Shown: piece after piece, positions 8,396 to 64,000 of the stretch
Layout of the letters: each line of letters opens with the position of its first letter
How positions within the stretch are numbered: the stretch's first letter is position 1
DNA from: Haloarchaeobius iranensis
GTDB taxonomy: Archaea; Halobacteriota; Halobacteria; Halobacteriales; Natrialbaceae
Direction: 5' to 3'
Assembly: GCF_900103505.1 (NCBI RefSeq)
Contig: NZ_FNIA01000011.1
Location: 1 to 64,000 of the forward strand
DNA: 64,000 nucleotides
Made by a program: the position numbers and the translations under genes
Notes under the pieces: model-generated
Databases searched by the model: none
Seen by the model: the letters and a program-made list of their open reading frames with translations, nothing else
What the model was told of the DNA's origin: nothing

Positions 8396-9148
8396 ATGGA
8401 GGTTCGCGTGCAGGACGGCGGACCAGCCGCCCCCTTCCTCAGTGCCAGGGACGTCTTCGAGACCGTCTGTGACCTCGAACTGCCGGTTCGAGTCCAGGTC
8501 AGGGAGAACCCGGACGAACGGACGTGGACGGGGCACTACGACGACCACCACGTCCTCAACATCTCGAGACGGGCGGCCACGAGCGCGATGGCCCGCGAGC
8601 TCGCGCTCCACGAGTTCGCCCACATGGCCCGGTACGAGGAGTCGCACCCGTCGCACACCCAGTCGACGGACGAGGCGCTGTTCCTGGGGCTCGCGGGCAA
8701 CAGCGTCGAACGCCACAAGGTCGCCCAGTGCTACCAGATAGCCAACCACATGAAGGACATCTACGCCGACGACATCACGATGCGCGTCGCCTCGGCCGAG
8801 AAGCTGGTGTCATTCCTCGAATCCGGGCTCGCCGCCGCGGTCGCCGACCAGCCCCGGCCGTTCCGCGGCGGTCTCGTCCCCGCCAATCCCGGTGCTGACC
8901 CCGACATCACGGCGGTCAACGCGGCCTTCGCGCTGGCACTCGTCGAGCGGCACGACCTCGCCGACCCCGACCACCGGCTGTACGACCTCGCCGCCGCCGC
9001 CGCCAGCGACGCCCCCGACGTCAGCCTCGAGGAGTTCAAGGGCCGGTTCGTCTCGCTCGTCGACGACCCGACCGAGAGCGAGTACCGCAAGGCGCTCGTC
9101 GACGTGACCCGGGCGTTCGCGTTGGGCAGGCAGCAGGCCGCGGACTGA
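8396..9148 (+). CDS. DUF5781-like putative zinc metallopeptidase
   Basis: A soluble 250-residue protein. The motif HEFAHM (H72, E73, H76) is a zincin-type HExxH site, and the surrounding LALHEFAHMARYEESHPSHT resembles the haloarchaeal DUF5781 family. No third ligand can be assigned with certainty. The ATG at 8396 is preferred because a weak box near 8361-8371 gives a near-leaderless transcript and the extra 45 upstream residues look non-coding. There is no signal peptide, so a cytoplasmic role is likely. Substrate unknown. Confidence 0.75.
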   Translation: MEVRVQDGGPAAPFLSARDVFETVCDLELPVRVQVRENPDERTWTGHYDDHHVLNISRRAATSAMARELALHEFAHMARYEESHPSHTQSTDEALFLGLAGNSVERHKVAQCYQIANHMKDIYADDITMRVASAEKLVSFLESGLAAAVADQPRPFRGGLVPANPGADPDITAVNAAFALALVERHDLADPDHRLYDLAAAAASDAPDVSLEEFKGRFVSLVDDPTESEYRKALVDVTRAFALGRQQAAD

Positions 9149-9190
9149 GGGCTGAATCGCGGTTCGAGGGCCCCCGATCTCCGCCCATCG

Positions 9191-9350
9191 GCGCGCGCTG
9201 GCGAGCGAGAACCGCGACTGCGAACGGGGAGCCTGCGACAGAGCGAGGCGGCTGGAGAGGCATGAGGGGGCGGTGCGGTCGCGGGGGCTAGGACCGAAAC
9301 GAGCGAGTCCCCGGAGTCGAGACAGTCGGAGCTTTCTGGTCGTTGTAGAC
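9191..9350 (+). repeat. Dispersed intergenic repeat, copy A (short)
   Basis: GC-rich non-coding segment starting 43 bases after the metallopeptidase stop. It shares ordered blocks with copies at 40614-40950 and 62445-62840: GCGCGC-GCTGGCGAG at the start, GGAGCCTGCGA, CGGCTGGAGAGG, GGTGCGG, and GTCGAGACAGTCGGAGC followed by TTTCTGG near the end. The long hairpins of the other copies are missing here. It occupies most of the gap before the ferredoxin gene. Confidence 0.7.
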
Positions 9351-39052: not shown

Positions 39053-40564
39053 ATGGCAACGGAAGCCGCCCAGCACTCCGAGACGTACGAGGAGTTCATC
39101 ACACTCGTCGAGCGCATCTCGAACGTCGGGAGCGCCCAGTCGCTCTTGAACTGGGACCAGGAGGTCATGATGCCCGAGGAGGGCACACCCGCCCGGTCCA
39201 AGCAGCTGTCTGCGCTCTCGGCGGTGAGCCACGAGCTGCTCACCGGCGAGGAGATGGCCGGCTACCTCGACGAGCTGGCGGATGCGGACCTCGACGCCGA
39301 GCAGGCGGCCGTCGTCCGCGAGGTGCGCCGGAAGTACGAGCGCGCAGCTCGCGTTCCGACGGACCTGGTCGAGACGATCTCCCAGACCGCCGCGGAGGCC
39401 CACCCGCTCTGGAAGGAGGCCAAGGCGGAGGACGACTTCTCCATCTTCGCGCCGAAGCTGGAGGAGCTCGTCGAGCTGAAGCGGGAGTACGCCGAGCACA
39501 TCGACCCCGACCGCGACCCGTACGCGGTGCTGTTCGAGGACTACGAGCCGTACCTCGGCCTCGACACTGCGGAGGAAACGCTCACCGAACTGCGCGACGA
39601 GCTCGTCCCGCTCGTCGAGGACATCCGCGCCTCCGACGCCGACCTCGCGACGCCGTTCGAGGGCGAGTTCGACGAGGCGACCCAGGAGGAACTGGCCCGC
39701 GACGTGCTCGACACGCTGGGCTACGACTGGGACCGCGGCCGCCTCGACGTCGCGCCGCACCCGTTCTCGACGGGCAACCAGTTCGACGCCCGCGTGACGA
39801 CCCGGTTCGACGAGTCCGACCCGCTCGGCGCGCTCACCTCGACCGTCCACGAGTTCGGCCACGCGACGTACACGCTCGGCCTGCCCGACGAGCACTACGG
39901 CACGCCGCTGGGCGAGTCCCGCGACCTCACCGTCCACGAGAGCCAGAGCCGGCTCTGGGAGAACCACGTCGGCCGCTCCGAGCCGTTCTGGCAGCGCTTC
40001 CTCCCCTCGATGCGGGAGCGCTTCCCACAGGTCGACGACGCCACGCCGCGTGACGTCTACGAGGCAGCCAACACCGTCAAGGAGGACAACCTCATCCGCG
40101 TCGAGGCCGACGAGCTCACCTACCACATGCACATCGTCGTGCGCTTCGAGGTCGAGAAGGAGCTCATCTCGGGCGAGCTCGACGTCGAGGATGTCCCGGA
40201 GGTCTGGAACGACAAGTACGAGGAGTACCTCGGCATCCGGCCCGAGACCGACGCCGAGGGCTGCCTGCAGGACATCCACTGGAGCCACGGCAGCTTCGGC
40301 TACTTCCCGACGTACTCCCTGGGCTCCGTGCTCGCCGCCCAGCTCTACGAGGCCGCCGAGGACGACCTCGGGGCGCTCGACGAGCGCACCCGCGAGGGCG
40401 AGTTCGACGAGCTCCACGCGTGGCTCACCGAGAACGTCCACCAGCACGGCTGCCTGTACACCACGGACGACCTCGTGCAGGAGGCGACCGGCGAGGGCTT
40501 CACCGCCGACTACTTCCTCGACTACGTCACGGAGAAGTACGGCGAACTGTACGACCTGCACTGA
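39053..40564 (+). CDS. Carboxypeptidase M32 (Taq type)
   Basis: A 503-residue zinc carboxypeptidase. The zinc motif HEFGHATY starts at about H266, and the family's second motif HESQSRLWENHVGRS follows about 35 residues later. The length is normal for thermostable carboxypeptidase 1. It trims C-terminal residues from peptides in the cytoplasm. The ATG at 39053 is preferred over one at 39014 because it begins the homology and has a box about 30 bases upstream. A dispersed repeat starts 50 bases after its stop. Confidence 0.93.
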   Translation: MATEAAQHSETYEEFITLVERISNVGSAQSLLNWDQEVMMPEEGTPARSKQLSALSAVSHELLTGEEMAGYLDELADADLDAEQAAVVREVRRKYERAARVPTDLVETISQTAAEAHPLWKEAKAEDDFSIFAPKLEELVELKREYAEHIDPDRDPYAVLFEDYEPYLGLDTAEETLTELRDELVPLVEDIRASDADLATPFEGEFDEATQEELARDVLDTLGYDWDRGRLDVAPHPFSTGNQFDARVTTRFDESDPLGALTSTVHEFGHATYTLGLPDEHYGTPLGESRDLTVHESQSRLWENHVGRSEPFWQRFLPSMRERFPQVDDATPRDVYEAANTVKEDNLIRVEADELTYHMHIVVRFEVEKELISGELDVEDVPEVWNDKYEEYLGIRPETDAEGCLQDIHWSHGSFGYFPTYSLGSVLAAQLYEAAEDDLGALDERTREGEFDELHAWLTENVHQHGCLYTTDDLVQEATGEGFTADYFLDYVTEKYGELYDLH

Positions 40565-40613: not shown

Positions 40614-40950
40614 ATGGCGCGCGGCTGGCGAGCGTGCCGAAGGCCGCGAGCCATCCGCGCGAGGGATGCGCACCGCAGCGAAGCGAGGAGCGCAATCGGC
40701 TGGGGAGGTTCGAGGTGCGGTGCGGGGTGGGACTGAAAGGGGCGACGTGCTCGTCGAGCGAGACGATGCAAGGACCACAGGAACGAAGGCCGTGGTTCGA
40801 AAGACGCCTTCGGCGTCTTTCGTCATCACGAGAGAGCGAAGCTCTCTCGAACGACAGCGAGTCGCAGCCGACGAGCACGTCGGGGCTATCTGGCTGTTTC
40901 CGGTACTAGCGTGTCTCACGACTGACCGGGGTTTCCGGCTGTTGTCGTCA
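40614..40950 (+). repeat. Dispersed hairpin-rich intergenic repeat, copy B
   Basis: Starts TGGCGCGCGGCTGGCGAG 50 bases after the M32 stop. It shares GAGCCATCCGCG, GAGGGATG, CGGCTGGGGAGG and GGTGCGGT with the copies at 9191 and 62840. Two perfect hairpins follow: CGAAAGACGCC/GGCGTCTTTCG (40798-40808 and 40812-40822) and CGAGAGAGC/GCTCTCTCG (40829-40837 and 40841-40849). It ends around TTGTCGTCACCA. No protein-like ORF is found in this 513-base gap. Confidence 0.85.
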
Positions 40951-62444: not shown

Positions 62445-62840
62445 GTGACCGGTAGTGACGAAAACGGCCCGCCAGTCGTTGGAATTACCGTCGATACCAA
62501 CAGCCAGAAAGCTCCGGCCGTCTCGACTCCCACGATTCGCTGTCGTTCGAAAGACGCCGGGGCGTCTTTCGTGCTGTCGCAAGAAAGCGGGGCTTTCTGG
62601 CTGTTAACCGGAAATCGCAGATTTCCGGTGATGACGAGAGAGCGAAGCTCTCTCGAAGCACACTCCTCACTCTGTTCCGGTGCTTGCGTCGTCAGGGTTC
62701 GCCGTACAGGGTCCCCACCCCGAACCGCACCACGCACCTCCCCAGCCGATTCGCTCGGTCGCAGGCTCCCTCGCTCATCCCTCACGCGGATGGCTCGACA
62801 CGCTCCCTGGCGGTCGCGCGTCTCGCCAGCCGCGCGCCAC
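62445..62840 (-). repeat. Dispersed hairpin-rich intergenic repeat, copy C
   Basis: In minus orientation it begins TGGCGCGCGGCTGGCGAG 34 bases after the thiDN stop. It contains four stem-loops with arms at 62548-62558/62561-62571, 62582-62588/62592-62598, 62608-62616/62620-62628 and 62635-62643/62647-62655. The first and last are the same two hairpins found in copy B. It fills almost the whole 466-base convergent gap; no gene is seen in it. Confidence 0.85.
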
Positions 62841-62873: not shown

Positions 62874-64000
62874 TCACCCCTCGACGACGTCCAGCAGTGC
62901 CAGCACCCGCTTCGAGAGCGTCCCTGCATCCGGGGCCACCAGCTTGCAGATCGGCTCCTTCCCGTGGGCGCCGTGGTCGAGGACGGCGACGGGCGTCTCG
63001 TCGGCCGCGCCGAACGTCGACCGGCCGGCCCAGTCCATCGTGCTCGCGTCGGCGGGCTCCTCGCTGCGGTCGTAGGTGGCGCTGGGCCAGTCGAGCTCCT
63101 CGACGGCATCCGCGACCGACTCGTCGAACCGACAGTTGCAGGCGAAGCGGAGGGCCGGGTCGTACTCGCGGGCCGAGAGCAGGAACCGGGCGACGTGGCT
63201 GGACGCGCCGAAGCGCACGCCGCCGGTGGGGCGGACGCCGTCGTGGACGCTGGCGACCCGGCCGTCGACGGCGACCGTCTCGTCCACGGATTCGGCGAAC
63301 GGGAGCGCGCCGACGACGTTGGTGCCGACCTCGGGAATCAGAGCGCTCGCGTCGGCGGCGACGAGGTCGTCGACGACGCGCTCGATGTCGGCGATGGTCT
63401 CGCGGGCGGCGGCCCGGTTCCGAAGCGCCACGTGGTGGTTCACCGCGCCGTTCGCGCCCACGTCGGCGTGGTAGCGGATTGCCCGCGCGACGAAGTCGAC
63501 GGCAGCCTCGACGGCGTCGGTGAGGTCGTCGCCGGTCGCGAGGTTGGCGGCGACCGCGGCCGAGAGCGTGCAACCGGAGCCGTGGGTCGCGGCGTCGGCG
63601 ACGCGGGGGTGCTCGAAGGCGATGGCGTCGTCCGCGGTGACGAGCACGTCGACGACGCCGTCGGTGTCGATGTGGCCGCCCTTCACGAGCGCGGCGTCGG
63701 CCCCCATCGCGACGATGTCCGCGCCGGCGTCGCACGCGCTCCCGGTGTCCGTCGGCTCGGTTCCGGTGAGCACGGCCGCCTCGTCCGCGTTGGGCGTGAC
63801 GAGGGTCGCGTCCGAGACCAGGTCCTCGTAGGCCGACTCGGCCTCGCGGTCGAGCAGTCGGTCGCCGGAGGTCGCGACCATCACGGGGTCGACGACGACG
63901 GGCACGTCCCGTGCGGCGAGTCGCTCGTGGACGGTCTCGATGACCGGCGCGGTGGCGAGCATCCCGGTCTTCACCGCTCGAACGTCGAAGTCGTCGAAGA
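62874..64000 (-). CDS. thiDN: Bifunctional HMP(-P) kinase / thiamine-phosphate synthase ThiD-ThiN (partial)
   Basis: An open frame that continues past the right edge; about 375 C-terminal residues are visible. The ThiD part includes PVVVDPVMVATSGDRLLD, LVTPNADEAAVL, DAALVKGGHIDTDGVVDVL and the kinase motif HGSGCTLSAAVAANLA. After about residue 175 of the visible part comes a ThiN domain (LIPEVGTNVVGALPFAES, then VRFGASSHVARFLLSAREYD). It phosphorylates hydroxymethylpyrimidine and joins it to the thiazole phosphate in thiamine synthesis. Copy C of the dispersed repeat follows its stop. Confidence 0.93.
   Translation of the reverse strand, partial: FDDFDVRAVKTGMLATAPVIETVHERLAARDVPVVVDPVMVATSGDRLLDREAESAYEDLVSDATLVTPNADEAAVLTGTEPTDTGSACDAGADIVAMGADAALVKGGHIDTDGVVDVLVTADDAIAFEHPRVADAATHGSGCTLSAAVAANLATGDDLTDAVEAAVDFVARAIRYHADVGANGAVNHHVALRNRAAARETIADIERVVDDLVAADASALIPEVGTNVVGALPFAESVDETVAVDGRVASVHDGVRPTGGVRFGASSHVARFLLSAREYDPALRFACNCRFDESVADAVEELDWPSATYDRSEEPADASTMDWAGRSTFGAADETPVAVLDHGAHGKEPICKLVAPDAGTLSKRVLALLDVVEG

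Follow-up and report, generated by a model that had tools for sequence, protein, structure and literature searches.

Intergenic DNA throughout the haloarchaea carries a family of mosaic hairpin elements, with dozens of copies per genome, and three of these copies lie in the window analysed here, a stretch of 64,000 nucleotides from Haloarchaeobius iranensis. The fold of the elements is conserved whilst the sequence of their stems is free, they sit between genes both as pairs and as singles, they are present in some species and absent from others, and their stems match those of other loci rather than those of the ortholog. Our preferred reading, to which we would give an even chance, is that of a REP/BIME-like intergenic element of mosaic build, selected for its structure and shuffled by gene conversion, which would act as a DNA hairpin or cruciform more probably than as RNA. 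The repeat appears to be unnamed, it is found in most haloarchaeal genera, and its stems covary very strongly even inside one genome. Nature has here run an experiment with a constant fold and unconstrained sequence, from which one can ask directly whether covariation of this kind always signifies RNA or can also arise from DNA hairpins that are maintained and reshuffled through gene conversion. The repeat also cautions that a functional RNA is not proved by covariation on its own.

The three copies in the window (A, B and C) have heads starting at 9190, 40616 and, on the minus strand, 62838, and share one order of blocks: head, GGCTGGGGAGG, hairpins and a GGGGCTTTCTGG tail (Table 1). The preliminary description had placed and ordered them correctly, and had rightly noted two near-identical hairpins common to copies B and C, GAAAGACGCC(TTC/CC)GGCGTCTTTC and GAGAGAGC(GAA/TTC)GCTCTCTC. 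Each head lies downstream of a same-strand stop codon (9146-9148, 40562-40564 and 62874-62876), at a distance of 41, 51 and 35 bases, respectively. The genes upstream of copies B and C encode an M32 peptidase and thiDN, as had been proposed, whilst the supposed metallopeptidase upstream of copy A is assigned by Pfam to DUF5781. At the gap orthologous to that of copy A, the sister genome G001 retains a 3' remnant of the element; at the gap of copy C, both G001 and G003 carry an orthologous element with a different core. The inverted tail motif within copy C (62589-62605) reads as what remains of a nested insertion or an inversion.

Table 1. Features of the repeat in the window, numbered from its first nucleotide
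Feature	Position	Strand	Basis or remark
Copy B, whole element, head to second tail unit	40616..40943	+	sequence search of source genome
Copy B, head motif GGCGCGCGGCTGGCGAG	40616..40632	+	32 genomic sites with at most 1 mismatch
Copy B, middle block GGCTGGGGAGG	40698..40708	+	
Copy B, core start motif GGGACTGAAAGGGG	40729..40742	+	nearly invariant, 241 cores
Copy B, main stem P2, 5' arm GACGTGCTCGTCG	40744..40756	+	
Copy B, inserted hairpin GAAAGACGCC-TTC-GGCGTCTTTC	40799..40821	+	C(TNC)G triloop class
Copy B, inserted hairpin GAGAGAGC-GAA-GCTCTCTC	40830..40848	+	C(GNA)G triloop class
Copy B, main stem P2, 3' arm CGACGAGCACGTC	40869..40881	+	
Copy B, two tail units, GGGGCTATCTGGCTGTT and CGGGGTTTCCGGCTGTT	40882..40943	+	tail motif nearly invariant, 241 cores
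Copy A, degenerate: head, GGCTGGAGAGG, decayed core, GGAGCTTTCTGG tail	9190..9344	+	covariance model 29.6 bits
Copy C: head, middle block, core without GGGACTG motif, inserted hairpins, tail	62499..62838	-	
Inverted tail motif GGGGCTTTCTGGCTGTT within copy C	62589..62605	+	

The conserved core runs from GGGACTGAAAGGGG through a variable nested hairpin to GGGGCTTTCTGGCTGTT. The motifs on either side of the hairpin are nearly invariant among 241 distinct cores, the feet being GGGACTGAAAGGGG and GGGGCTTTCTGG. Pairing begins with P1 (GAAAG/CTTTC), which is followed by a GGGG/GGGG internal loop and then by the 13-bp P2; inside P2 lie P3 and P4, where an A.A mismatch is conserved and the loops are of the G-N-A/G-A type. 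In Haloarchaeobius, the head (GGCGCGCGGCTGGCGAG...) and the GGCTGGGGAGG block stand upstream of the core, one or more tail units follow it, and additional hairpins sit inserted in the loops. Head, tail repeats and extra hairpins are lineage-specific additions to a fixed core. ACTGAAAG/GAAAGGGG may bear some resemblance to CRISPR tags or origin boxes.

That a hairpin module has spread by copying, as first suggested from the window, is borne out in the source genome. Copy B matches 70 stretches there, which merge by eye into about 41 loci, the best match besides itself having an E value of 3e-72. The repeat lies far beyond chance, since alongside this match GGGACTGAAAGGGGC occurs at 39 source-genome sites with at most one mismatch, against 1 for a reversed-pattern control; the head motif occurs at 32 sites at the same tolerance. 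A covariance model of the core found matches in 167 of the 195 Halobacteria genomes, representing 58 of 66 genera; element counts go no higher than 18 for any one genome and are hence minimum values. All exact-pattern matches in GTDB are haloarchaeal among the matches listed. Copies on plasmids are few, at 37 places distributed over 30 records, and a search of phage records gave no match, so that a phage origin was rejected. Searches of Rfam, at the gathering threshold and at E<=10, returned no convincing family, the best hit being HDV-like at 19.5 bits against a threshold of 50. The open literature, queried with sequence strings and for haloarchaeal repeats, REP and small RNAs (subscription papers lying outside this scope), yielded no description of the repeat, and no word beginning 'halo' occurs in the main text of the RepRanger paper (PMC12306157). 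The family is thus apparently undescribed and unnamed.

Evidence for a selected fold comes from the stems. The sequence of P2 differs from copy to copy with its pairing kept: at least 10 of the 12 outer pairs are retained in all 31 own-genome cores examined, whilst arms combined from different own-genome copies reach this level in only 17% of cases. Among 16 short cores of the own genus, 98.6% of cells are paired, compared with 78.7% after shuffling. Compensatory changes, which the preliminary description had named as a check, are abundant in 121 further copies, found with the covariance model in genomes outside its training set. Here 23 of 30 pairs have changed on both sides, two-sided changes number 688 against 210 in shuffles, and the covariation score is 0.483 against 0.125 for shuffled alignments, falling to 0.026-0.035 in sliding controls; the copies having been aligned by fitting to the model, the precise values are biased in its favour. 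Specific mismatches are retained inside the covarying stems in 121 of 128 cases. This points to selection on a defined fold and tells against pure palindrome repair as the source of the pairing. Covariation beyond chance, as expected of a structured RNA, does not by itself separate RNA from DNA.

The position of the three window copies, 35-51 bases beyond a stop codon, suggested that the repeat belongs to genes, as a terminator of transcription or a module for 3'-UTR stability. The rule that the repeat always follows a same-strand stop codon holds within the window but in only half of the copies genome-wide. Gene calls were made with a simple codon-usage caller rather than a full annotation, and gaps were coded by whether the upstream and downstream genes lie on the same (S) or opposite (O) strand as the element. 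The 36 own-genome copies divide into SS 14, OS 15, SO 4 and OO 3, so that just 18 follow a same-strand gene and 15 lie between divergent genes. In 1.6 Mb of G001, OS (13) and SS (12) are the commonest arrangements, with OO at 6 and SO at 3; the background of 250-900 bp gaps is divided in much the same way, with 113 tandem, 82 divergent and 25 convergent. Furthermore, many copies in other genera form divergent pairs. Cores in Haloarcula and its relatives are often arranged back to back, with 24-34 bp between them and no evident promoter at the centre. The hairpin is followed by the GGGGCTTTCTGG tail rather than by the T-run of an intrinsic terminator. The repeat does not mark gene ends, and a terminator or stability function, largely refuted as a general role, is now very improbable. 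What this explanation retains is a bias of orientation with the genes, seen only within tandem gaps: 14:3 in the own genome and 12:6 in G001 (13:2 and 9:2 with confidently called genes), and 28:15 in other genera, some loci in these counts being orthologous and hence counted twice. Random orientation and position relative to genes had been put forward as evidence that would tell against a 3'-end element; position proves random in this sense, whilst orientation in tandem gaps does not (14:3, 12:6).

The same co-directional bias is as expected of something transcribed, and counts against a DNA reading. It belongs to the case for a structured RNA, in which the plus strand would be transcribed by read-through or from a promoter of its own, the P1-P4 fold being a processed small RNA or a structure at the end of an mRNA. 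G.T pairs outnumber A.C pairs in P2 by 73 to 17 (own 11:6, pairs 17:8, other singles 45:3), implying that one strand is favoured as the folded form, which suits RNA and single-stranded DNA alike. The asymmetric G-N-A/G-A loops and the A.A mismatch are conserved, and the predicted RNA fold is strong (z -5.6). The folding energy is, however, unusual for DNA as well, and equally so on both strands. G.T pairs are few: their share in P2 is 1.5% for the own genus, against 6.3% in tRNA stems. Many copies lie between divergent genes without an evident promoter, others form back-to-back pairs, and none belongs to an Rfam family. Taken together, these points leave a structured RNA a rather unlikely explanation.

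The loops of the hairpins provide a further indication. Triloops of the GNA or TNC type make up 103 of 167 (62%) in the elements, compared with 12% genome-wide; when only distinct stems are counted the figures are 32 of 63 (51%) and 79 of 493 (16%), and the closing pair is C-G in 30 of 36 cases. GNA-type DNA loops with G-C pairs form extra-stable minihairpins (PMC4686876). Four-base GNNA-type loops are not enriched, and RNA-type tetraloops were rejected on this ground. The C(GNA)G triloops and the scarcity of G.T pairs lean, short of proof, towards folding as DNA over RNA.

Comparison of about 24 orthologous gaps between the source genome (G000) and G001 indicates how the family may change. 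Most of these gaps retain an element or a remnant and several are empty. In seven of eight ortholog pairs, the P2 arms of the G001 copy resemble those of some other locus more closely than those of the ortholog, suggesting that stems move by ectopic exchange. Such swapping between copies would account for constantly changing stems in a constant fold. The P2 arms of L012(-) in G001 are identical to those of window copy B, whose core is 94% identical to that of L010, a locus at which the orientation of the element differs between species. Four cores, at L025:1993-2142, in the G001 ortholog of L033, at L165 and at L168, have their inner hairpin block inverted inside an intact outer stem. At three orthologous loci (L064/L105, L065/L134 and L082/L137) one species has a back-to-back pair where another has a single copy, so that pairs and singles interconvert. 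To judge from these sequence comparisons, the pattern is consistent with copies exchanging sequence, for which gene conversion is the simplest mechanism, together with deletion and inversion.

Presence and absence at orthologous gaps, together with dispersed and plasmid-borne copies and an intergenic placement that spares promoters, might also be produced by a selfish, non-autonomous element moved in trans by an enzyme and tolerated only between genes. The sole filled and empty comparison with a precise junction is at locus B, where G000 and G003 carry the element and G001 and G005 do not. The empty sites share the junction TGA|CACCGAACCGAAGCGC, but the filled sites share about 130 bp outside the repeat as well, and so leave no clean transposition footprint. 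A 4-bp CTGA match at the edges of the locus, outside the repeat, fits deletion as well as duplication. Across the approximately 24 gaps there are no terminal inverted repeats, constant ends or clear target duplications of the kind that define a MITE. The Y1/HUH transposase (PF01797) was sought and not found in six element-rich genomes (G002, G004, G005, G022, G023 and G025). Mobilisation of the IS200/605 or RAYT type was rejected, as the distribution of the Y1 transposase does not track the family. We regard a mobile element as improbable.

A number of parallels can be drawn with other systems. Integron attC sites are folded single strands recognised by shape, with sequence-free stems and extrahelical bases; their likeness to the haloarchaeal repeat is one of resemblance only. 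BOX/RUP-type repeats have ordered modules and a variable hairpin-forming part. These modules are analogous to those of the haloarchaeal repeat, of which stem exchange between loci is a distinguishing feature, and no sequence relation is expected; repeats of this type are described from pneumococci (PMC3049150). Mitochondrial double-hairpin or repetitive hairpin-forming elements are likewise hairpin units spreading in intergenic DNA (PMC2800124), but they are organellar, whereas the haloarchaeal repeat keeps its core motif across a whole archaeal class. The closest descriptive class is that of REP/BIME, since the family consists of multi-copy intergenic imperfect palindromes in mosaic composites. 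With bacterial REP/BIME, and REPINs with TnpA-REP, it has in common many such palindromes per genome, mosaic composites, alternating orientations and conserved stem mismatches (PMC8266576, PMC2817692). It differs from them in its far larger nested fold, in combining a fixed core motif with stems of free sequence, in having feet, across 241 cores, other than the conserved GTAG-type tetranucleotide that marks the foot of the 20-50 nt REP palindrome, in lacking a linked Y1 transposase, and in being class-wide in haloarchaea.

Under the preferred REP/BIME-like reading, every element is built on the fixed core (GGGACTGAAAGGGG, the nested hairpin P1-P4, the conserved A.A and G-N-A/G-A mismatches, and GGGGCTTTCTGG) and selection would act on the folded strand. 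Stems would be replaced through ectopic gene conversion between copies, to judge from their shared sequences, and the active form would be a DNA hairpin or cruciform more probably than an RNA. The putative role is that of a protein-binding or chromosome-structure site, and no role at gene 3' ends is claimed. More tentatively, the family may be described as a hitherto undescribed, class-wide structured nucleic acid of the Halobacteria, selected for a single branched fold and probably folding as a DNA single strand with loops of the C(GNA)G type; its stem sequences would be continuously traded among chromosomal loci, and a host protein may bind it.

Further variation surrounds the elements. Several perfect tandem repeats of the tail unit are found at L022:2638-2813. 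A second head type (CAAGACACCCCGCGCCGGCAGGCGCGTGGGTGTCGAGGGGGAGG) occurs at L012, L014, L022 and L036, and was seen solely as the divergent partner of the common head. A 19-bp palindrome, GTTTACAA-NNN-TTGTAAAC, is present 11 times in 1.6 Mb of G001 (C1/C2, L171-L250), always between genes, and also at L012, L022, L026 and L037. It looks like a candidate protein-binding site or AT-rich promoter. Most instances adjoin an element, and in four cases the palindrome lies 20-42 bp upstream of a head.
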